Origin: Pomphorhynchus laevis
Lineage: Eukaryota; Acanthocephala; Palaeacanthocephala; Echinorhynchida; Pomphorhynchidae
Assembly (NCBI GenBank): GCA_012934845.2
Contig: WNNJ02002937.1
Coordinates: 62,001-126,000, forward strand
Direction: 5' to 3'
Length of the DNA stretch: 64,000 bases
The position numbers were made by a program, and so were the translations under genes. Under the pieces are notes generated by a model. It did not search any database. It was given only the letters and a program-made list of their open reading frames with translations, and had not been told where the DNA came from. Positions 4,424 through 60,806 of the stretch are shown here, piece by piece (positions within the stretch are counted from its first letter, which is position 1; the number at the start of each line of letters is the position of its first letter).

Positions 4424-5460
4424 TTACAACCCGGATGCACATTGATACATATTTTCCATAACGATGATTATTTTGGAACTCAATTTTCTTATCAGATCAC
4501 TATAAGTGTGTAATCCCCTGTCCGCACTTAGTGACGCAATTCTTTTATCGTCAAGTTCGCCGCCGTCTAAAAGCGCCGTTTCCTGTGATAACAAAGGGTA
4601 TGAATGATTCTCTTTCATACGGGCACACTCTCTCCGGGGCTAGGTGATTAAATGAGCAAACGTCTAACATGGACCGCTCCGTCATGCTTTCTAACAATCC
4701 ACGGCATTCCATGTCTAGCCTGGCATCTCGAACTATTATTATTGATGATCTCTCAAAAATCATATTTTCATCAAGTGGCTTAAGTACTTGCTCGATTGTC
4801 ACATCAGAGCACACATTGGACAATTATTTTGCAACAAGGTGAGAATAATGGCTGGTATATAATGTTGTTTAATGTAAAGTGACAGTTCGTCGTAGGCATC
4901 ATTAGAGGTTAGACATGAACGTTTGAGGAAAGCCCATTTAAATTGTAATAATTGCGTAAACGCGGCATATGCTATCTGGGGTTCCTCCTTAACAATCTTG
5001 ATTAGTCTGCTTTCCAGCATCTTCCATTCTTTGATTTTCGACTTTACGAATTTGTCAGTTTAGACTATATCACCAATGGCAGACCCAAGTACACGCATTC
5101 CTGATGTCATTATGCTGATCTCAGCGTTTTAGAAAAGATTCCTGGCCTCGTATTGGTTACTGCTTTGAGTAAGGAGTTGGCACTTTTCTTTGTTTATGAA
5201 AAACCCATATTGAGGCCAGATTTGACATATTGCCTCCCACACCGCAAGCAAATCATCAGGCGTTCCAACACAAATTCCGTCATCGGCATACCATCTGTAT
5301 ATTACTCCTGGACAGATGTGTGTGAGGCGCTTTATAATAGGTGGAGTGGCTGCTGCGAATGACAATATTGCCAAGAAATCCGACATTTTATTTCAGCACT
5401 CAAGGCACTTGGTTTGAAAATTGTCGTATTAAATTGCGCAAAGCTGTTTTGGTATATTGA
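4424..5460 (-). pseudogene. RLE-X retrotransposon fragment: RT catalytic region, thumb, endonuclease
   Basis: On the minus strand from 5460 down, FLAILSFAAATPPI is followed by YRWYADDGICVGT, which is the RT catalytic YADD. Next comes a thumb region with MRVLGSAIG, FVKSKIKEW and PQIAYAAFTQLLQFKWAFL (4799-5100). Then comes DARLDMECRGLL...SMLDVCSFNHLAP...ERESFIPFVITGNGAF (4551-4823). This order and wording match a widespread invertebrate RT family that I recognise by pattern (AYAAFTHGL-KW and ARLD-DVRVFNPLAPS motifs) but cannot name securely. The C-terminal part resembles a PD-(D/E)xK nuclease core, although its helix with the E-x-K is deleted in this copy. Several frameshifts and stops make it a pseudogene. 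Confidence 0.75.
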
Positions 5461-5639: not shown

Positions 5640-5970
5640 TGAAACTTGAGAGACTCAGTGACTTTTTCTTCTCAAAAGTCATTGAAATCGCTTTAACGAA
5701 TATGTTCTTTATTGTGCTGGTAACAATCTTGACAATTGTTGTATGATTGCGTTCACCGAATAGCCAATCCCGTCGGTTGTAGAGACAATAAGCGGATGGA
5801 AGAAACCGTATTCTATCAGTTGGATTCTCTCACTGTACTTCGATATTTTTCTATTTTCGTGATATCTGTATGGATCAAGGACATTCGTTGCAGAGTACGA
5901 CGGAGCCAAACAATTGAAAACACATACGTCCACAATCAATGAATCAACATGGTCACTCCGCGCATCCAAG
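5640..5970 (-). pseudogene. RLE-X endonuclease-domain fragment
   Basis: The minus-strand frame 5709-5969 reads IVDVCVFNCLAPSYS, HENRKISKYSERIQLIEY and FFHPLIVSTTDGIGYS. This aligns with the endonuclease domain of the copies at 27.6 and 42.4 kb (FFDVCIFNSNTSSYQ, HETRKHNKYEERINEVDH, IAATGGIGPSA). It keeps the D-x-V strand and the E-x-R/K helix expected of a PD-(D/E)xK fold. It is only a fragment, with no RT attached, and is truncated at both ends. Confidence 0.7.
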
Positions 5971-7620: not shown

Positions 7621-9620
7621 GAGGCGGGGTCGGCTATGTGAGATTTAGCCCTCTATTTCGCCCTATATCTAGCCTGGTTTGAATGAAGTCCAGATGACAT
7701 AAGATCTGTATGAATGCTATCTAGCCATCGTCGCTTAGACGACCTCTCGGACGTTTGCCACTGATCTCGTACTTTAAGGCGGTCTTTGCAACGGAGTAAT
7801 TTTCACTTCGCAACACGTGACCGTACCACCGGATTCTGGCCTCTTGCATTTTGCTAATGATTGGAGCGACTTTGTATCTTTGGAGGATATCCATATTTCT
7901 TACGTGGTCAAATCGCGTTATTCTGCTTATCCATCGCAGCATTTTAGTCCCCATGACCGCTAGGCATAGTTTCGCTGCCTTGGTAATAGGCCAACACTCT
8001 GTGCCGTACATGGCCACAGGGCAGATGATTGAGGAATAGATCTTTGATTTTAGATGGTCTTTAATTAACGGTCATATAAAACGCCTGTAGCCGTTCGCCA
8101 TTTTGTCCACGCTGAGTTTATTCGTGCCGTGATTTCATTACTCAGGTCGCCACTTGCCGAAAGTATGGTTCCGAGCTACTTGAACATGTCCGTACGTCTC
8201 AAATCAATGCCGTTTATGTTGATGGTACCAATTTCCTGTGGGTATGTTGTCAGGTATTCGGTCTTGTCTAGATTAAGTCGTAGTCCGAATTGTGTGAGTC
8301 GATTATTCCGGACTTTGGTTAATTCCTCCAGGTCCTTTTTGTTGTCCGTCGCCAGCCAGACATCGTCTGCGCATAAAATCGTGTGAGGAATCGGCTTTTG
8401 GATATCACTCGCTATAGCGTCCATAACTGTTGAATAAGGCCGGTGAGAGAGCGCTTCCCTGATGGACGTCCACTGGTATTCGAAATGGCTGTAAAATTCC
8501 AGCTGCACTTAAAACCCGGCTTTTGGAGTTCTGATAGAGTAGCATCACCCATTGGATTATATGCTCTGGGAGTTGATGCTGTCGCAGTGCATACAATTAA
8601 AATTCATGTGGGACACGGTCGAAAGCTTTCTCCAAGTCCAAAAATGCAACGTGGAGTGACTGATTTTTCTCCAGGTGCTTTTCGATTGTCAATCGTATTG
8701 CGTGCATAACGTCAGTAGTGCCATAATATTTGACGAATCTTGTTTTGTTTACGGTGATATCAACAATGTCACGGATACGCTTGTCTAAAATACGCTCGAA
8801 CATTTTCATAGTTTGCGAGATCAATCGAATTGGGCGGTAACTGGAGCAGTCAGCTGGATTCCCTTTCTTTTTCCATATCGGTATGGTGATACTCCTCTGC
8901 CAACCGCTCGGTATCTTATGCTCATCAGTGATCATGTTGAAGAGCTGGTTAGCCAGGGGACCGGGTCCCAGCTTTTTGTCTTTCAGATCTCAGTCGCAAT
9001 GTCGTCTGTCCTTTGGCTTTACTTATCATCACACAGTTTAATGCTTTCTTCACCTCGTCCTTACTAATTTGAGGTAATGAACCGGACGTTACTGCAACTT
9101 CTGGGATCGGGGGATGCGGAATCTCTTCATTTGAGATTTCCTCAATATGATCACGCCATCTCTCTCGAACTTTCTGTCGATCGATTAATAATTTAGCGTC
9201 CCTTCCATTGACGCAGTAAAACCTTTGGATATCCTGCGTGTTTTGATGTCTTCGCTTCACAAGCCGAAATAAATCTCGCTCACTATCGCGTGTATTGAGT
9301 CTCCTTTACATTATCATAGTGAATGGTTCTGGCAACTGCAACGGCCTTCTTACCGTTTCTCTTTGCTAAATGGTATGCATGCTAGTTTGTCTGTATCACG
9401 GATGATTTTACATCATCCGTCCAGAGCCATGTATCACGCTTAATATATCTTTATCCTGCTTTTGTACGATCAAGTATCTTATCCGCTATCGCATGCACTA
9501 TATGTCCAGTCTTGCTCCACGTTTCTTCAACTGTTGTTACTTCAGGAAGCCGTATCTTCGAGATCACTTCTTCTTCCATATCGCCGAAACGCCACCATTT
9601 TGTTCTAGACCGTGCAGTTA
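7620..9620 (-). mobile_element. RTE-clade LINE, 5'-truncated and frameshifted
   Basis: Reading down the minus strand gives the linker PLTARSRTKWWRFGDMEEEV (about 9620), then RQKVRERWRDHIEEISNEE and HPPIPEV. RT follows: WKKKGNPADCSSYRPIRLIS, MKMFERILDKRIRDIV, TTDVMHA, FLDLEKAFDRVPHE, VHQGSALSP, ILCADDVWLATDNKKDLEEL and FGLRLNLDKTEYLTT. The C-terminal block has GTECWPITKA, MLRWI, RIRWYGHVLR and RGRLSDDGWLDSIHTDL. These are hallmark RTE (RTE-1/BovB-like) strings. The catalytic box reads CADD. Frameshifts separate the blocks, and the endonuclease half is missing. The break at about 9620 is where a plus-strand RLE-X copy follows. Confidence 0.9.
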
Positions 9621-9701: not shown

Positions 9702-10127
9702 ATGGAAACCAAATTCGATTCCAATATGTTGCGTCATAATGATTCCGCAGCCAAATGCATTGGTTGCCGTTGCACGAAAATAAACCGTCCATGTATCAAC
9801 TGTCATGCCGCTCATTGTCAGAATAAAATAAATTCAATTACAGAACATCAACAAAGCATTCAAACCCTTAATCATACAACAAACAAAGGAAGTTTGCGTG
9901 ACGTAAATGTTCAACAAAATAACAACGATGATGTATTTTGTACCATACAGCCTATGACGTCTTCGAATTCACTTAAGCATCACTTATCAAAAGAGAGCCA
10001 TTTGTACAATAGCATTGAAGAATATAAAGAAGTTATAAAATGGCGTAGAATCTTTACCGATTATTCAAATGTAATGCTGATCACCTTCTTTTTACACGTA
10101 ATTCAGGCTGTAAAATCGTGCGGTTGA
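9702..10127 (+). pseudogene. RLE-X N-terminal Cys-rich segment
   Basis: This 141-codon open frame starts at ATG 9702. It has a compact cysteine cluster, CIGCRCTKINRPCINC, followed by HAAHCQNK. A polar, Asn/Gln-rich stretch and KWRRIFTDYSN follow. Because it runs straight into the RLE-X RT module at 10135-12050 in the same orientation, I read it as the N-terminal nucleic-acid-binding part of that element. A very similar cluster (CNSCVCVRNGKQCINC) heads the ORF1 of CR1-C at 60.7 kb. The frame breaks near 10127, so this is the start of a dead gene. Confidence 0.6.
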
Positions 10128-10134
10128 ACATTCA

Positions 10135-12050
10135 TCGCAAACTAAAACTCTGGAAATATGATTGCTTGTCTGAATTACACTCAGAAGCTCGTTATCTACA
10201 AATCGAATGTGTTCATCGTAAATCATTACATACACCTTTAAGAGTCAATTGAATTGGCAAATTTTGTCAACTAATGCGTCTGGGTAAAGCTGGTACCGCT
10301 ATGCATTTGCTGGCGAAGCTTGAGGCAGAAACAAATATACTTTCTGTAGAAGATGATATTGGGGTCATTTCTGTCAGAGAAAAGCTTGAGTAATCGCACC
10401 CGACCTCAAGAGAAATTTGTTCCGAGTTAATATTAAAACTACCGATATCTGAAATTATATCTCACCATGCAATAAGTTACCAGTCAATTTCAGCAAATGA
10501 TATAGTAATAGCCAGTCATCGTACCCATGAATCTACCGGTTCATCGGGGTTAAACGCATCCTAATGGCAAATACTTCTAAATTCATATGATAGAAGCTCA
10601 GTCAAACTAGCGGAAAGGCTGGCCAACTTTGCGATAATACTCGTCAGCAAGACGCTGCCACCTAACTCTCCAGCGGCTTTCACTGCCAGTCGACTAGTTC
10701 CTTTGGATAAACATCCAGGTGTACGTTCAATTCGGATAGGAGATGTAGTAAGGAGAATACTTGGTAAAGTTTTATGCAATCGCATCCGAGAGGATTTGCA
10801 ATCAGTCGCCGGAGTCGAGCAATTATGAGCAGGTCAGCAGTATGGCATTCAAGCTGCCTTTCACTCATTATCATAGATGTTCAGGAAGTCAATTAACTCT
10901 GCAATTTTACAAGTTGATGCTTCGAATGCCTTTAATTGAATTAATCGGAAGTTAGCTCTGAAAAACATTAAATTTATGTCTGAATATGGCAACATTACTA
11001 AGCAATTTCTATACAGATTCCACTACTTTATGTGTTGGAGACGAGTCAATTCTGTCAAAGATAGGCTTTACCCAGGGCGATTATATCTCAATGCTCGCGT
11101 TCGCAGCCGCTTCAATCCCACTTATCAATTTGATTAAAGAGAATTTATCAGAAATTTCGCATAGATCAACGCTGGTAATGCGAATTATGTAGGATCTATT
11201 GATAATTTAAGAAAAGTATGGAAGCTGCTTAACCAGGAAGCTCACAAATTTGGGTTTTATCTTAACATGGGAAAATGTTGGATTGTCGTACACAAAGAAA
11301 AATTGTCGCAGGCAATTCAATCATGTGATGTGAAAATAATTTCAAATGGCACTCAGGTATTGGGTTCTGCAATTGAAAGTGATTGCTTTATTGGTGATTT
11401 TGTCGAGGAAAAAATCGAAGGATGGTTGAATTTAATTTCGAACCTGACAAAAGTTGCGGGAGTGGATCCTCATATAGCGTACATATCCTTACGACGTCAT
11501 TACAATATAAGTGGTTCTATGTGCAAAGAACCTGTAAGGGTTGTAAGATAATTCTGTCTTATCGTACGCAATTTCAAATCAACTTATTCCGGCGATTACA
11601 GGAATGTCATCAAATAGCGAATCTTTGCAAGTTATGCTTCTTCCAAAGCAATTTAAAGGACTAGGAATTGAAGATCTAGCAGACAACCCTCAAAACAAAT
11701 TTTACAATTCACAAAAGATGTGCAATCTACTATTTCAGATAGATAGTTGTTTTACCAACAACTTAAAATTTTTACAGGCTAACACTGCAGCCTTAATTCG
11801 TTAGAAACAATGATAAGAATAATAGAAAATTATTATCACTGGAACATTCAAATAATCGATATCTTTTATTGTTGAAGCGCGTACCAATTCCTGGCGCTTC
11901 AAAATGGCTATCGGCAAAATCATTTGATTAGTTTCAAAAACATCTTGGGTTACGTTAATTTCAGGATGCCTTAGCTGTGATATACATATGGCCTCCACCA
12001 AATCAACCAGTAAATTGTACTTGTGGTGCTACGTTCGATATATGTGATAA
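10135..12050 (+). pseudogene. RLE-X reverse transcriptase, thumb and finger module (copy 3)
   Basis: In order on the plus strand: a linker (LRLGKAGTAMHLLAKLE), then TGSSGLNAS, SRLVPLDKHPGVRSIRIGDV, and IGFTQGDY (GTTQGDPL motif, 11060). Next are FGFYLNMGKCWIVV, QVLGSAIES, FVEEKIEGWLNLISNL, DPHIAYISL and LLPKQFKGLGIEDL. The end reads FQDALAVIYIWPPPNQPVNC then TCGATFDICD (11950-12040), which is the start of the C-x-C finger seen complete at 28.0 kb. A CR1-type 3' tail cuts it off there, so the nuclease domain is missing. Together with 9702-10127 this is the longest 5' part of the family in the window. Many stops and frameshifts. Confidence 0.75.
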
Positions 12051-12110
12051 AAAAGGATTTATTTATACGTGGCAAAGGCGTAACAGCGCACACGATAATG
12101 TTTCTTCATT
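12050..12110 (-). repeat. Solo CR1-type 3' tail
   Basis: The minus strand reads GTGTGCGCTGTTACGC then CTTTGCCACGTATAAATAAA, matching the CR1-A terminus with its decayed stem-loop. It is a very short 5'-truncated copy that cuts the RLE-X copy at its finger motif. Confidence 0.65.
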
Positions 12111-12695
12111 CAACCGTATTTCCAAAACTTCACTAGAAGTAAGCGGTATTATTTCGCCAATGCACTCGTCTAATTATCCCTATCCAACTCGTACTCTCCT
12201 TGGCCCGCAACCAGAGTATTCAAGCCTACACCGGTCAATCATACAGATTACCAAAGTCAGCGAAAACGGTTCCCCTCACTTGATAGGTGTACTATCATAT
12301 CGAATGTCAAGGTCTCCGACTCCTCTTCCGCTCAAAGCCGTCTCGATGCTGATGTATCTGCGTTTCGATCTCTCTTTTCGATAATCTTACCTGCTGATAA
12401 TCCATCTCTCTTTAATGACATCTCTCTAATTTCTAAACATCGCCTTACATCAAACGTTTCTGCTTCCCACTCAGATCTTCCTCCATTCTTAAAGGTTATT
12501 CTCAGTGATCATTCTCAGGCAACGTCAATGCTCTTCCGGCGTTTTAAACTCCTCTCCTCACCATCTAATCGTCGCATCCTTCCTGATCAGTCTCTGTCTG
12601 AAAACACTTAGCTTTCCTTTGCCAGTGAAGAAAAAAATCAACGTGAAATTAAAGGATAATAATTATTGGAGCTGGATCAAAGAAAACTTATTTTT

Positions 12696-21734: not shown

Positions 21735-22630
21735 ATGCAGTATGACAGTGAAGATGCTATGGCTAAAACATTGTCTATTCCGTATAATTATTTACATCAG
21801 GTCCGCAACGCCACTATTAATTCCAATCGAGATCTTATGCATGTTATCAATACTGGTAAATTGCCATTGAAACCTATTGATACTTTAACAGTGCTCACAT
21901 TTCTGGATTCCTATAGTAAAACAGTGGCGAAACCATTGGGGGAACCATCATTTTTAAATTCGTCATTACTTAGTGAAAGATGGCTAAATTTGAATCGGAA
22001 TGATTGGGAACCACTAAATGATATGTTAAATAGACTTACCCGCGACGCCTTACACATATGCCATTATAAATCTTTTGATGATATGATTTTACTGCCTTGG
22101 GCAACCGGTATGACAATGTCGCTTATGCTTTCTATCTTAAACAAATCATATAATGGTAATAACATTGTGGCGTGGTTCCGAATTGATCAAAAATCATGCA
22201 TAAAGTCAATTGAGCTATGTAATGATTTGATATGCATCAATCCTAAAGATGATGATGTTATATGTAATAATATAGAAAAATTAATAGAAGTGTTGTCTGT
22301 AGATAATTGTGGTAAACCGTTTTGTGTTGTTTCAACCACTAGCTGCTTTGCGCCGCGTGTACCCGATGATGTGATTGTGATTTCGAAATTATGTCGGAAA
22401 TACGAAGTTGCTCATTTAGTAAATAATGCATACGGTATCCAGTCGAAAGATATTGCGAAGATGATTGAAAAAGCAAGTAGGTTAGGAAGAATAGATTATG
22501 TCGTACAGAGCATGGATAAAAATTTTATGGTACCTGTTGGCGGATCAATTGTAATCGCATATAATCAGAAAATACCACAATGGCTTAAATTGAAATACGG
22601 GAGTAGCTTACAAAGAACGAATGGCAGCGT
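21735..22630 (+). CDS. SEPSECS: Divergent SepSecS-like protein, coding exon 1
   Basis: The C-terminal half of this exon is clearly SepSecS, the PLP enzyme that converts O-phosphoseryl-tRNA(Sec) to selenocysteinyl-tRNA(Sec): PWATGMTMSLML (121-132), FRIDQKSCIKS (148-158), STTSCFAPRVPD (200-211), HLVNNAYGIQS (227-237), GRIDYVVQSMDKNFMVPVGG (251-270). Lys262 sits at the PLP-lysine position. The first 115 residues align only loosely. The conserved phosphate-binding GEREGR and GRSGD...QPKAAGSS blocks of the animal enzyme are missing (only GEPSFLN and NRNDWEPLND are found). The best joined product with 25782-26235 is about 449 residues, against about 500 for the vertebrate enzyme. The start is the first ATG after AT-rich sequence. 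The donor at 22631 (GTATAT) joins in phase to the acceptor at 25781. Canonical tRNA-substrate activity is doubtful. Confidence 0.85.
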
Positions 22631-26235: not shown

Positions 26236-26466
26236 TTTGTTTATCACAATTGCGTTAAGAGATAAATACGTTTTTGAATACGTTCTTAAATACGTTTTTG
26301 AATTTGGGTTATGTTTTATTTATTTATTTATATTTACTTATCGACTACTAAAAGAGCAAAGTTTGAGATAGGGACATCACAATAAAAAAGAAATAAAGTT
26401 AAAAATAGTCAACAAAAACTGTCAAGCATTAAGGTGAATTTTAAATTGTAAAAGGTGACTTAAAGG

Positions 26467-27230
26467 TTGCTTTACAATTCGTTATATAATGACTCAAATG
26501 CTTACTTTGGTAAGCTGATTAATAGTGAAAGCTTAAATACATCAAAGATAAACATTTGGAAAACTTATATATTAGATAAAATTAAAGAGAAAATGAAAAT
26601 AACAAACAATTATAAAAGGAAAGATCAAATTAATAAAGATATGTATAAAGAACTTACTAAATTAAAGGATAACTATATAATAACAACTATTGATAAAGCT
26701 TGTAATAACTTTGTTTTCATATGCAAAAAGCTTTATTATGATATACTGATAAAAGAGGTTAATTCTAATGATTTAAATGTAAATCCAACATATGAACGTA
26801 GTGAGTTGAGTTTAGAAACAATTATTACAAGTCACTGTTCTATAATGGATAAAACGGGTATAAAGGTTGAATTAGATAATAAAACTATACCTATATTATA
26901 TTGGAATCCAAAATTACATAAAAATCCAATAAAACCTAGGTTCATATGTAGTGCGTTTAAATGTACATTAAAACCACTTTCTGTCTATATGAATAAAATA
27001 CTTAAAGTAATTAAAGCACACTTTAAAAAATATTGCAAGGTAATCGAAATTAATACTGGTATAAAACACTATTTCAGTATTAATTCTACAATAGAATTTT
27101 TAGAACAGACAAAAGGAATAAATTTTCAAAATATAAATACATACGATTTTAGTGAGCTTTATACCAATCTAGATTTAGCAGATATTAAGATGCATTAGAA
27201 AAATTAATTAATCTTATATTCGGAAAAGAT
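26467..27230 (+). pseudogene. Penelope-like RT N-terminal part, permuted (Naiad-like) family PLE-N
   Basis: A 243-codon open frame with LKDNYIITTIDKACNNFVFI, then YWNPKLHKNPIKPRFICSAF and INTYDFSELYTNLDLADIK. The pattern K(A/C)NNFVF...PKLHK-P...R-I...DFS-LYT is that of Penelope-like reverse transcriptases. The frame ends just after the first catalytic block, then ALEKLINLIFGK continues in another frame to 27230. GVPMGG and YxDD are absent here because the sequence runs into an RLE-X 3' end at 27255. Its family is the same as the copies at 44.1-46.9 and 54.1-55.8 kb, where a GIY-YIG nuclease precedes the RT. Very AT-rich. Confidence 0.85.
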
Positions 27231-27254
27231 ATACATATATATGGGAGGATATTT

Positions 27255-29228
27255 ATTAGTCAAAGCAAAAATCAAAATACAATGTTACAAACGACTCCTA
27301 GCGAGCAACAATCATTAAAATCAGCTAACTTCGCAATCGATATGTCAATGACTTAAATAACTCATTGCTAAAACAAGTCTCGTGAGGTGGCCGACATAGC
27401 GTTCCGCGTTATCCGTATTTGAGCTTGGACGTCCTCAGATGTTACAATAGGTAAATGTCGCGCGGATCGGGGAGCTCGCAAGCACATGGAGACTGCCCTA
27501 GCAAGGGAGAGGCTTATTTTCGTTCGTAACCAGGCGACGGAATCCGCGTATAGGGCTTCCTTTTATCATATAGCTCCCGCGCAATCGTCTTGATCATGGG
27601 CATCTGCTGATGGTCCGATCCCACCAGTCGCGGCTATAATTATCAGACAGAATATACTGTGGTCCACCTCCTTTATTCGCTCTTCATATTTGTTGCGTTT
27701 TCGCGTCTCGTGGTACTCGAAGCAAGATAATACGGATTTTGACTGGTATGATGAAGTATTGCTGTTAAAAATACAAACGTCAAAAAACGTTCGCTCCATC
27801 CTGCCGCCAAACAGGACGCAACACACGATATCTGGGCATGCATCTAATTTTCTGGTAGTTGTGACCCGTTGGAAAGGAATTGATTAGGGTACCGGTTCCA
27901 GCTGAGGTTCAAGTCCCACTCCATTACATACAAGTGTCAATGTGTCAGTCACTATGTCGCGAATCTCGTTGTATCGGATAATATGCAGGGCACCCCTTTT
28001 ACAGGAAAGAGCATGTGTCATGTTCTGATTGTCACCACAAATACAGTTTTTCGCCATACCTGTGGGAGTTCAGTTGAAGCGAGCAGCTAGAACATCCCGA
28101 AGCGGGTCGCCTTGGGTAAAACCCTCTTTCGATAGTATCTTGCTGCTATCTCCAACCATAATCGCGTGACCTCCATACATGTTGTTAAGCATTCGACCCA
28201 TCGATGGACAAACCATCCAAATATTTGCTAGTGTTAAATTTCGGCGGATCCTGTTAAACGCGTTCTTGGCATCAATGGAGAGAATTCCCATTTCAGAATT
28301 TGAGTGGAATTGCTCTGATAACGAGTTGGATCGCGTATTCTATTCCACCACGTTGTGCAGCACACAATTGTTCACGGCCTGCTACAGCTTGTAGGTCAGA
28401 CTTGACTACATTCCCAAATGTTTTACATATGATTCTTCTTAGTGCCTCTCATATCCCTATAGGTCTGACGCCAGGATTTTTGTTCAATGCGATGAAGCGT
28501 GATACGACCAAAGCTTCCAACACCTCAAAATCAATTTTATCCGTCGCAATCCGAAATGCCAAACGCGAGATTATCTCCGCCATATTTCGTAAATGTGTCT
28601 TGAATGTCGTTAACATCCGCTCGAACTCATGGGCAGTAGCCCCTGATGGTCCAGCACATCCACGAGTCTTCATGGCCGCAGCAATTACATGGTCTGCGTC
28701 TATCATGGTAAAGACAACGTCATGATAAACGACACAATTTGGCAGTGGCCTTTGCAGCAATGCTTCCTGGTCAGCGTTCATGCCCTCCGGATGTATTTCA
28801 CTTAATATCTCAGGTACACTACGTCCGTTGAAATCATCATCCCAATGAAATATCGGACAATCGACTGTGTCCGATTGTTTCAGGGTTTTGATCGCAGCGG
28901 TGATATTGCCAGATTTGATCAATGACGAGAAGCGTTTTTTCCAGTCAACATGTTTGACTATGTTGGTATTTAATTTCAATAATTTCGTCCATTTTCGTTG
29001 GAGTACACGAGCTTCGTCCAGTAAGTTCTGAAGTTGACCGCTGTGCCATAGTGTAATGCGTCTTTTTAGCGTTTTCCTTATCAATTGCACCTTCCGTGAT
29101 GGAATTCATTGAAATAGGCACTGACATATTACCGTAACTTCCTTCAATACCAAGTACTCTCCGTATAACTTATCCGCAACCTTTTTGTATTTTTCACTAA
29201 TCAGATCGATGAACATATCGCTCTCTAA
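27255..29228 (-). pseudogene. RLE-X retrotransposon (copy 4) with internal RT deletion
   Basis: Read from 29228 down: a linker (LKRRITLWHSGQLQNLLDEA, NITAAIKTLKQ), DADHVIAAAMKTRGCAGPSG and SRFIALNKNPGVRPIGI. After a break, ILSIDAKNAFNRIRRNLTLA (RT block A) and SKEGFTQGDPL (28111-28130) follow. The frame then jumps straight to RDVLAARFN (28080), TPTGMAKNCICGDNQNMTHA and LSCKRGALHIIRYNEIRDI. The YADD and thumb region is therefore deleted. Next comes the endonuclease: RTFFDVCIFNSNTSSYQSKS, YHETRKRNKYEERIKEVDH, IAATGGIGPSA. The 3' UTR ends near 27255. It is the only copy showing the CxC...H...C finger joined to the nuclease. Its far end abuts the SepSecS duplication. Confidence 0.8.
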
Positions 29229-30425
29229 CAGTGGCGAAACCATTGGGAGAACCATCATTTTTAAATTCGTCATTACTTAGTGAAAGATGGCTAAATTTGA
29301 ATCGGAATGATTGGGAACCACTAAATGATATGTTAAATAGACTTACCCGCGACGCCTTACACATATGCCATTATAAATCTTTTGATGATATGATTTTACT
29401 GCCTTGGGCAACCGGTATGACAATGTCGCTTATGCTTTCTATCTTAAACAAATCATATAATGGTAATAACATTGTGGCGTGGTTCCGAATTGATCAAAAA
29501 TCATGCATAAAGTCAATTGAGCTATAATAATAATACAAATTTATTTAATGTGGCAAATGCGTACAAGCTGTACGCTTACAAGTCCACAAACAAAATGAGA
29601 AAGTTAAGCAGTTAAATTGTTCAGATGGGATCGGATTTGTCGTTTGAAGCACTGCAGGGAAGTTGATTGGCGTATATGAATGGGCAGATGATTCCACGAT
29701 AGAGGAGCAGCCACCAGGAAGGAGCGGAGTCCAAAGGAGGTAGAGTAGTTTGGGACATGTAAAAGAAGGGAATTACAGGAACGCAAGGAACAGTAAACAG
29801 GACGGGAATTATCAAGAAAAGGAAGGTTGAGAAATGAAGGGGTATGAAAAGTTACAAGGCGGAAAGCAACGATAAGAAGACGAATTTGAACACGACAATA
29901 AATTGTAGGCAAATCGAGAGAAGCAAGATGGTAGGATGTGTGATCAAAACGACGAAGACGGAGGAGAATTCGGACAGCTGCGTTGACGATGCGTTATGTA
30001 ATGATTTGATATGCATCAATCCTAAAGATGATGATGTTATATGTAATAATATAGAAAAATTAATAGAAGTGTTGTCTGTAGATAATTGTGGTAAACCGTT
30101 TTGTGTTGTTTCAACCACTAGCTGCTTTGCGCCGCGTGTACCCGATGATGTGATTGTGATTTCGAAATTATGTCGGAAATACGAAGTTGCTCATTTAGTA
30201 AATAATGCATACGGTATCCAGTCGAAAGATATTGCGAAGATGATTGAAAAAGCAAGTAGGTTAGGAAGAATAGATTATGTCGTACAGAGCATGGATAAAA
30301 ATTTTATGGTACCTGTTGGCGGATCAATTGTAATCGCATATAATCAGAAAATACCACAATGGCTTAAATTGAAATACGGGAGTAGCTTACAAAGAACGAA
30401 TGGCAGCGTGTATATAGTCAAAAAA
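29229..30425 (+). pseudogene. SepSecS exon 1 partial copy, split by a LINE insertion
   Basis: 29229-29525 repeats the exon from VAKPLGEPSFLNSSLLSERW to CIKSIEL, and 29996-30419 resumes at CNDLICINPKDDD through to ...RTNGS. Between them lies 470 bp of CR1-B in antisense. The N-terminal 60 codons and exon 2 are missing from this copy, so it cannot make the enzyme. An artificial open frame (29844-30428) fuses antisense LINE sequence to the exon remainder, including the PLP-lysine motif, but nothing suggests it is used. Confidence 0.88.
29526..29995 (-). mobile_element. Nested, 5'-truncated CR1-B copy in the SepSecS duplicate
   Basis: On the minus strand it covers only the CR1-B C-terminus (RIRLLIVAFRLVTFH-type region) and 3' UTR, with the stem-loop at 29559-29575 and the ATTATTATT tail. 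It differs from the 22.8-kb copy at several 3'-UTR bases (for example acaaacaaaatg versus acacacaaaaatg), so it is a sibling insertion, not part of the duplication. The target was GAGCTAT/GTAATG; at most a 3-base duplication (TAT) is visible. Confidence 0.85.
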
Positions 30426-41940: not shown

Positions 41941-41968
41941 GGAAATTACTTGATAACTGAAAAAGAGA

Positions 41969-42718
41969 GGATAGTTATTAGTCAAAGCAAAAATCAAAAT
42001 ACAATGTTACAAACGACTCCTAGCGAGCAACAATCATTAAAATCAGCTAATTTCGCAATCTATATGTCAATAACTCATTGCTAAAGCAAGTCTCTTGAGG
42101 TGACCGACATAGCGTTCCGCGTTATCCGTATTTGAGCATGGATGTCTTCAGATGTTACAATGGGTAAATGTCGCGTGGATCGGGGTGCTCGTAAACACAT
42201 GTAGACTGCCCTAACAAGGGAGAGGCTTATTTTCGTTCGCAACCAGGCGACAGAATCCGCGTATTGGGTTTCCATTTTTCGTATAGCTTCCGCGCAATCG
42301 TCTTGATCATTGTATCTGCTGATGGTCCGATCCCACCAGTCGCAGCTATAACTATTGGACAGAATGTACTGTGGTCCACCTCATTTATTCGCTCTTCGTA
42401 TTTGTTGTGTTTTCGCGTCTCGTGATACTCGAAGCAAGATAATACGGATTTTGACTGGTATGATGAAGTATTGCTGTTAAAAATACAAAAGTCGAAAAAC
42501 GTTCGCTCCATCCTGCCGCCGAACAGGCGGCAACATACGATATCCGGGCATGCATCTGGTTTTCTTGTAGTTGTAACCCGTTGGAAAGGAATTGATTCGG
42601 GTACCGATTCCAGATGAGGTTTAAGTCCCACTCCATTACATACAAGTGTTAATGTGTCAGCCACTATGTCGCGAATCTCGTTGTGTCAGATAATAGGCAA
42701 GGCAAGCCTTTTACAGGA
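41969..42718 (-). pseudogene. RLE-X endonuclease end (copy 5), 5'-truncated
   Basis: Starts in the finger (SCKRLALPIIRHNEIRDIVA at 42718), then LVCNGVGLKPHLESVPESIP and the endonuclease domain: RTFFDFCIFNSNTSSYQSKS, CFEYHETRKHNKYEERINEV and FCPIVIAATGGIGPSADTMI. The C-terminus is KLYEKWKPNTRILSP, then in the next frame SVAWLRTKISLSLVRAVYMC and LRAPRS. The D-x-V strand is FDFCIF and the helix carries E-T-R. The 3' UTR is the same as at 27255-27400. Only one frameshift, near 42250. 5' truncation at a protein-coding position is typical of target-primed insertion. Confidence 0.8.
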
Positions 42719-43069
42719 AAAATGAATTATAACTGAAAATGAATTATTGCAACGAAATGTGAATTTTATTTCCTATTAAATGTAGTGATTTACAGTACAT
42801 GTTATTTTTCAGGTCATTCAAAATAATTATTATTTAAATTACATATAGTTTTACTTTTAATTATGTTGTATCAATTTGAATAAAAAATTAGCAATCATCA
42901 TGTTACCATAATAAGCATAAATGAAAAATATTTTTAAAGTATTTCATCATTTTGGTTTTCACCGCTGTAATTAACCATGAATTCCATCAAAGCATTTAGA
43001 TCAGGCTATTAATATTATTTGAAATTGAAAGATATCATTTAAAACACAAAAAAAACAATTCAAATTTAG
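42719..43069. other. AT-rich intron or intergenic sequence
   Basis: No gene or repeat recognised. It ends with TTTAG at 43065-43069, used below as a splice acceptor. Confidence 0.5.
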
Positions 43070-59762: not shown

Positions 59763-60806
59763 TCAGCTCTCATTTACTGCGTGGGCTTCCCTACTTGATG
59801 AAACCACTATCTTATGCCCTTTAATAAAATATCGCTTACTTGGGTTTGACTTTTTTCGTTCGGATGATTCTTTCCGTAATCTCTTAAGTTCCTCTTGTTC
59901 AAGTTTCGATAAATCAGAGCATAAGTACACTGTATGAAAGAGATATGAATTCTTAAGCTTTAACGAAGATTTTAAAGATGATTTCACATTGTTGACGCTA
60001 ACTTTTACCTTAACACACGGAGGGGAATTAGCATGAAGTGCAGGGAGTCGATGTAAGTCTAGTTTTTGTCCGACCAAAGAATAACCAATTTCTTCAATGT
60101 GATTTAATTTAATTTGTTGCTCGCTTTTAGAAACGGCTAAATAAGGAACTATCAGATTTGAGGCACTAGCGCTTTCCCTATCAAGATAGTTTGCTAATTT
60201 AGAATAAGATTTATATACCTCTGGTGTGCGTTGAAAAGAACAAACAGCATGAGATACCTGCTTATTGATGCAACGGTTGAGGGAGGAGTTGATAGACTCA
60301 TTTACTATTATAAATATACGCTCTTTGTTTGTCCAGCAACTATTTGAATCATTTGATATTAACTGGTTTTTAAATTTAGTTATTTCAATTCGGGTTTTGT
60401 TGATTGCTTTGGCTGCACAAAATCCACATAGGTAATCTTGGGCCAGTAAATCTCTAGAAAGCCTTCTCGGAAGAATTACCGTTGAATACACGTTGCAATT
60501 ATCCACAGTACACTTCACTTCGATTGAGATAGTCTTTACGACGTTTTCTGTCATTCCCGGTTCATCGTTGTTCGAACATTGTTTGGATAATTTGGCTGTA
60601 TGTTTGTCGTTATATTGATTGGATGGAATCAATCTTTCTCGATTTGAGCATCGGTGTGCACAACAATTAATGCATTGCTTACCATTTCGAACGCACACAC
60701 AGCTGTTACAAACAGCTGTTTGACTGTTATAAGGACAACATCGCTTATTCGCAGACTGTTCTGTCATGGTGATTTGATGATTGCACTTTTTTGTCCCCAA
60801 GTTCAA
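59763..60806 (-). CDS. CR1-C ORF1 protein: Cys-rich, zinc-module RNA-binding protein, intact
   Basis: An uninterrupted 347-codon frame; the second in-frame ATG (MTEQSANKRC, near 60768) is an equally good start. Domains: a cysteine cluster CNSCVCVRNGKQCINC plus CAHRCSN (residues about 32-57); a second zinc-type module CTVDNC...RDLLAQDYLCGFCAAK (about 98-137); a helical stretch TRIEITKFKNQL; then a core with LNHIEEIGYSLVGQKLDLHR, VKVKVSVNNVKSSLKSSLKL. The charged C-terminus is KLEQEELKRLRKESSERKKS. A LINE ORF1 protein of this kind would coat element RNA and assist its integration. The CGFCAAK module is shared with CR1-A and CR1-D. ORF2 follows on the same strand after about 120 bp. Its intactness contrasts with the broken ORF2. 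Confidence 0.8.
   Translation of the reverse strand: MNLGTKKCNHQITMTEQSANKRCCPYNSQTAVCNSCVCVRNGKQCINCCAHRCSNRERLIPSNQYNDKHTAKLSKQCSNNDEPGMTENVVKTISIEVKCTVDNCNVYSTVILPRRLSRDLLAQDYLCGFCAAKAINKTRIEITKFKNQLISNDSNSCWTNKERIFIIVNESINSSLNRCINKQVSHAVCSFQRTPEVYKSYSKLANYLDRESASASNLIVPYLAVSKSEQQIKLNHIEEIGYSLVGQKLDLHRLPALHANSPPCVKVKVSVNNVKSSLKSSLKLKNSYLFHTVYLCSDLSKLEQEELKRLRKESSERKKSNPSKRYFIKGHKIVVSSSREAHAVNES

Follow-up and report, generated by a model that had tools for sequence, protein, structure and literature searches.

The window analysed here, 64,000 nucleotides of the contig WNNJ02002937.1 (positions 62,001 to 126,000) within the 249-Mb assembly of the acanthocephalan Pomphorhynchus laevis, contains six stretches related to a family of long interspersed nuclear elements (LINEs) encoding a reverse transcriptase (RT) and a restriction-like endonuclease (RLE), all of them broken or decayed. 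They were detected by tblastn using L051, L052 and L054, intact proteins encoded by this genome, as queries (best E 3e-87), the matches extending over 4569-4838(-), 4847-5383(-), 5697-5957(-), 9735-12162(+), 27449-29261(-), 42162-42751(-) and 60627-60776(-). All five copies listed in an initial annotation of this DNA were recovered, together with a sixth fragment absent from it, and the motifs that it quoted are present in the window translations.

The copy annotated at 9702-12050 lies on the plus strand and comprises a Cys-rich head and linker at 9735..10046 (Cys cluster at ~9738-9827; L051 19-133, L052 32-61), the N-terminal linker and RT at 10115..11491 (L051 191-654, E 1e-62), interrupted by 8 in-frame stops, and the second linker through the Cys/His knuckle and slightly past it at 11818..12162 (L052 757-829, L054 704-796). 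Of the modules assigned initially to the composite of five copies, the head, linker, RT and finger were found in it, its end was shifted to ~12162, and the nuclease was not found in this copy, the tblastn match ending just beyond the finger. The nuclease is located in the copies at 27 and 42 kb, and pieces of it lie near 4.6 and 5.8 kb. The 27-kb copy, on the minus strand, is composed of the N-terminal linker and RT start (SRFIALNKNPGVRPIGI) at 28308..29261 (L051 135-447, E 3e-87), the RT middle with DAKNAFN and FTQGDPL in an open reading frame (ORF) at 28100..28327 (L052 442-517), and a region at 27449..28180 (L052 777-1025, E 7e-59; ORFs) including the linker end, the knuckle (CICGDNQNMTHALSC), RYNEIRD, the nuclease with PD..D..K-x2-KY, and the C-terminus; the YADD part and the thumb are missing. 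Its C-terminal and 3' end at 27245..27448(-) was delimited by a DNA match to 41967-42720 and by genome matches, most of 41 stopping at the element end, 27245 (query position 316). The 42-kb fragment (41967..42751, minus strand; tblastn) runs from the knuckle region to the element 3' end with 91% DNA identity to 27245-28008 and holds an open nuclease ORF of 152 amino acids (aa) at 42227..42685(-), reading CPD, D and K-x2-KY (D48, D65, K92, Y96).

Between 4 and 6 kb, three minus-strand pieces correspond to the knuckle region and nuclease start (4569..4838; L051 861-973, E 1e-13), to the second half of the RT with WYADDG and the thumb PQIAYAAFT (4847..5383; L054 424-601, E 4e-30; RVT_1 match at E 3.7e-5, below the Pfam cut-off) and to a nuclease fragment (5697..5957; L051 913-997, E 2e-14). 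On this strand the nuclease piece at 5697-5957 lies upstream of the RT piece at 4847-5383, the reverse of the module order, and the stretch is either two fragments or a rearrangement. The sixth fragment, 60627..60776(-), consists of the Cys-rich head only (L051 4-49, E 2e-6). At the DNA level (E 1e-10) the sole matching pair is formed by the 27-kb and 42-kb copies, 91% identical over 764 bp, the remaining copies matching one another at the protein level only. On this comparison the window copies belong to several subfamilies and not to the one composite element into which the initial annotation had assembled them.

The presence of several subfamilies and of fragments out of order at 4-6 kb would be expected if the pieces came from unrelated elements merely resembling one, a reading made very remote by the modules held together in single open frames elsewhere in the genome. 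In a search of the same genome with the nuclease, 19 of the 150 rows listed lie in open frames of at least 900 aa; 150 of 7356 first-look candidates were scored, so that the copy number is a lower bound. Whole frames spanning linker through nuclease occur at three of the four loci fetched, L051 (1044 aa), L052 (1029 aa) and L054 (951 aa); at the fourth, L053, the frame leaves the locus inside the nuclease. The Cys head is present in L051, L052 and L053 and not in the L054 frame, and the Cys pattern of the 9702-copy head recurs in L051-L053 and in 5 of the proteins found by homology. In addition, L002 and L003, two decayed loci that share ~88% identity with the 9702 copy, run colinear with the intact proteins from the linker through the nuclease, in several frames. 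The module order is real, because single frames and the colinear L002 and L003 carry the modules in that order; the R2-ordered layout and the common origin of the pieces, as initially annotated, are thereby borne out. The L052-type copies are young, judged by the identity of their scored 3' matches, which is 90-100% in all 40, unlike the decayed copies of the window. A 431-bp repeat (L052:4491-4921; ~40 copies at 97-99% identity) lies beside the 3' end of this element; a 1102-base query chiefly matched it, and loci L056-L078 were excluded from use.

The RT is the only domain recognized by Pfam: RVT_1 is above the cut-off in the three intact proteins (E 2.8e-7 to 3e-12), and nothing else meaningful was returned for these and 10 window pieces, including any finger or Myb domain in the intact proteins, in which the Cys cluster is visible and the head poorly modelled. 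Structural matches of the RT are led by R2 and L1, indicating an RT of the type lacking long terminal repeats; a single-sequence search of the PDB yielded a group II RT at E 0.16 and nothing else, and a profile was needed. The finger between RT and nuclease, described at first as C-x-C/H-x4-C, has the actual spacing C-x-C-x7-H-x3-C, present in 57 out of 75 proteins of the family, with truncated sequences counted in, and followed by RHN, RHD or similar in 55. The nuclease residues are spaced D-x16-D, then K-x2-(K)Y. D, D, K and Y are kept in all 44 chosen rows, a count that favours intact rows, since the underlying alignment was made up mostly of proteins with a complete C-terminus (40 of the 82 found by then; L054 was lost), and the strict pattern matched 18 of 49 rows when truncated and diverged ones were included. 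A further alignment, A1, omits P0044, P0045 and L053. The PD-(D/E)xK nature of the nuclease is named by no Pfam profile, and the nuclease ORF had no match in PHROGs; it is supported by the predicted fold, which matches the R2 RLE best and then other nucleases of the same fold, in agreement with the RLE-like nuclease originally proposed. On this model the restriction-enzyme-like domain very probably cuts DNA.

Homology searches found 106 proteins, few of them named. Those named within the family are Penaeus proteins listed as uncharacterized. A wider group (P0044, P0078-P0104) shares RPIA.G, QGDPL and the knuckle, has YLDD where the family has WYADD, and shows the strict RPD..D..K-x2-KY in 4 of 29 members, several others being truncated; its named members come from sunflower, quinoa, other Asteraceae, a moth, a red alga and Diplonema. 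The RT tree has 46 rows: 37 of the 106 proteins (20 of the family, 15 of the YLDD group, P0105 and P0106), four rows from the same genome, the window row, three R2 and one L1. All 25 family rows, including that of the window, form one branch (100/100) beside or within the YLDD group, and the two together are separate from the three R2 RTs (100/99; R2 98/83). Long branches were flagged by the tool, the window row being 1.42 long and lacking a starred set of its own. This tree, proposed in the initial annotation, sets the family apart from R2 among named references limited to R2, human L1 and two others; NeSL, Hero and CRE are absent from it.

The likeness to R2 (Bombyx, zebra finch, turtle) is extensive, comprising RT, linker, knuckle, RH(N/D) and a PD-(D/E)xK nuclease with a distant K-x2-KY in one ORF. 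Utopia and NeSL also agree by description, with N-terminal fingers, RT, finger and RLE within one protein (excerpt of PMC4640811). The family could in principle be a diverged, non-site-specific member of R2 or of NeSL/Utopia, comparable to the cockroach BLAG elements: R2 chains are the top structural matches by fold, and R2-like elements without site specificity are described in part of PMC7650587. This is nevertheless improbable in view of the RT branch separate from the three R2 RTs and of the differing knuckle and head. The family differs from R2 in the Cys cluster at the head, the knuckle with C-x-C and H-x3-C, the D-x16-D spacing and the dispersed insertions; Utopia inserts in U2 genes. 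By RT grouping, assessed against few references, and by the lack of a single site among the sampled junctions, the family does not fit the R2 clade. Human LINE-1 ORF2p has an N-terminal apurinic/apyrimidinic endonuclease and differs from the family, whose nuclease is a C-terminal RLE.

The element ends are specific to subfamilies. Elements of the L052 subfamily begin ~35 nt ahead of the first ATG and finish with a constant sequence followed by an A-rich tail of 7 to ~30 nt; the 3' end of the window subfamily is CT-rich (15 junctions), and in the L051 subfamily similarity is lost within an AT-rich tail in 22 of the 22 rows holding the element end. The 3' flank of L051 is itself a repeat, present at at least 18 further places among the matches listed. 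A fixed target site was rejected: because 25 different flanks occur among the 27 3' junctions fetched, these sampled junctions have no single target site. They fit neither insertion at one site in 28S rRNA genes, as in the R2 clade, nor the use of one position in spliced-leader genes, as in trypanosomatid CRE members, no flank being common to them. Among 351 flank pairs, 5 have at least 13 nt in common: two, L082/L084 and L106/L107, resemble duplicated loci, the L080/L100 pair is AT-rich, 15 nt of a repeated motif occur in both L088 and L098, and the stretch common to L090/L094 is 13 nt long. There may be a weak insertion preference for certain repeats. The 16-mer ATAAAATAACATACAG has 122 matches, on contig 82 and other contigs (0 for the reversed control), and occurs exactly at two of eight L052-type 5' junctions and in a near form at a third; it was not accepted as a target site, as it also sits in a 5-kb tandem array on contig 82 (locus L114), recurring every 4997 bases with no frame >106 aa and with no Rfam match. 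None of six pairs examined gave a convincing target-site duplication, the 19 nt shared by the C487 pair being of the ATAAAATAACATACAG motif.

Another reading, with a probability slightly below even, makes the family one branch of the named CRE clade (SLACS, CRE1/2, MoTeR, FoTeR, Cnl1), perhaps already in Repbase. RT and RLE lie in an ORF in both, the A-rich tail of the L052 subfamily, though not the CT-rich end of the window subfamily, recalls the poly-A stated for CRE elements in an excerpt of PMC12278014, the knuckle H-x3-C is shared with MoTeR (PMC12857005, in part), and a position near CRE1 is given for a Penaeus (shrimp) expressed-sequence contig in the portion available of PMC3849965, the named family members being Penaeus proteins. 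Compared by description with the RLE consensus C[X1-3]C[X7-8]H[X3-4]C[X9-10]RHD/N ... PD.X12-14.D/E, as quoted in part of PMC12857005, the knuckle fits and the following spacings are off, with 8 against 9-10 and 16 against 12-14 residues. Also weighing on the other side are the dispersion of the sampled insertions with no spliced-leader or telomere site as a common flank, and the homology matches, one search being aimed at CRE, among whose partly printed names no CRE or SLACS protein appears.

By all features tested, the family is an RLE LINE. The window copies are in all likelihood (probability about 0.92) dead members of several subfamilies of one such lineage, with a modular ORF of ~1000 aa (Cys-rich head, helical linker, RT, second linker, C-x-C-x7-H-x3-C knuckle and PD-(D/E)xK-type nuclease) and with R2-style target-primed reverse transcription (TPRT) as the most likely mechanism. 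The basis is the module order, the conserved catalytic residues, the predicted fold, the many copies and the scattered junctions. TPRT is inferred by analogy, from homology and architecture: as in R2, the protein would bind its own RNA at the 3' end, the target DNA would be nicked by the nuclease and the freed 3'-OH would prime reverse transcription, with dispersed copies and subfamily-specific 3' ends as the outcome; the Cys head would bind nucleic acid. Both the conservation of residues in the RT and nuclease and the existence of scattered copies with tails are consistent with this mechanism.

This abundant family is a dispersed relative of the site-specific R2 elements and is classed under a known kind because Repbase may already contain such families. 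In line with the initial annotation, no published name for the lineage was found in the literature, which did not cover Repbase and hence is no proof of absence. A more tentative and rather doubtful proposal is that of an unnamed, widespread RLE LINE clade, characterized by the Cys-rich head and by poly-A, AT-rich or CT-rich subfamily 3' ends, which has lost site specificity and is now dispersed at high copy number; if true, it would contrast with the rule that most RLE LINEs insert at fixed sites, described as target-specific in an excerpt of PMC4640811. R2 is under engineering for gene insertion (PMC12222951, in part), and an R2-like RT and nuclease core with scattered insertions and intact, near-identical copies in one genome would make it possible to ask which protein regions determine the choice of target. 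RT proteins listed as uncharacterized in databases, for example those of Penaeus, gain an identity.

Two of the relatives have unusual architectures. P0080 of Diplonema papillatum (DIPPA_29707; 1702 aa) joins RT, knuckle and RPD..D..K-x2-KY nuclease to a tyrosine recombinase (PF00589), and represents either an unusual chimeric protein or a fusion introduced by the gene model. In the distant relative P0045 (1549 aa) the RT is preceded by an RNase H domain (PF00075), the order reported in oomycete Utopia according to part of PMC4640811.

Scans of the window gave no Rfam match and no tRNA. Near the 3' terminus of the 27-kb copy, the ORF at 26464-27198(+) is taken to encode the RT of a Penelope-like element, and the pieces at 7721-8989(-) presumably belong to the RT of a different LINE, both by motif resemblance. 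Finally, 299 bp are present twice at 99.7% identity, at 29227-29525 and 21920-22218, as a recent repeat.
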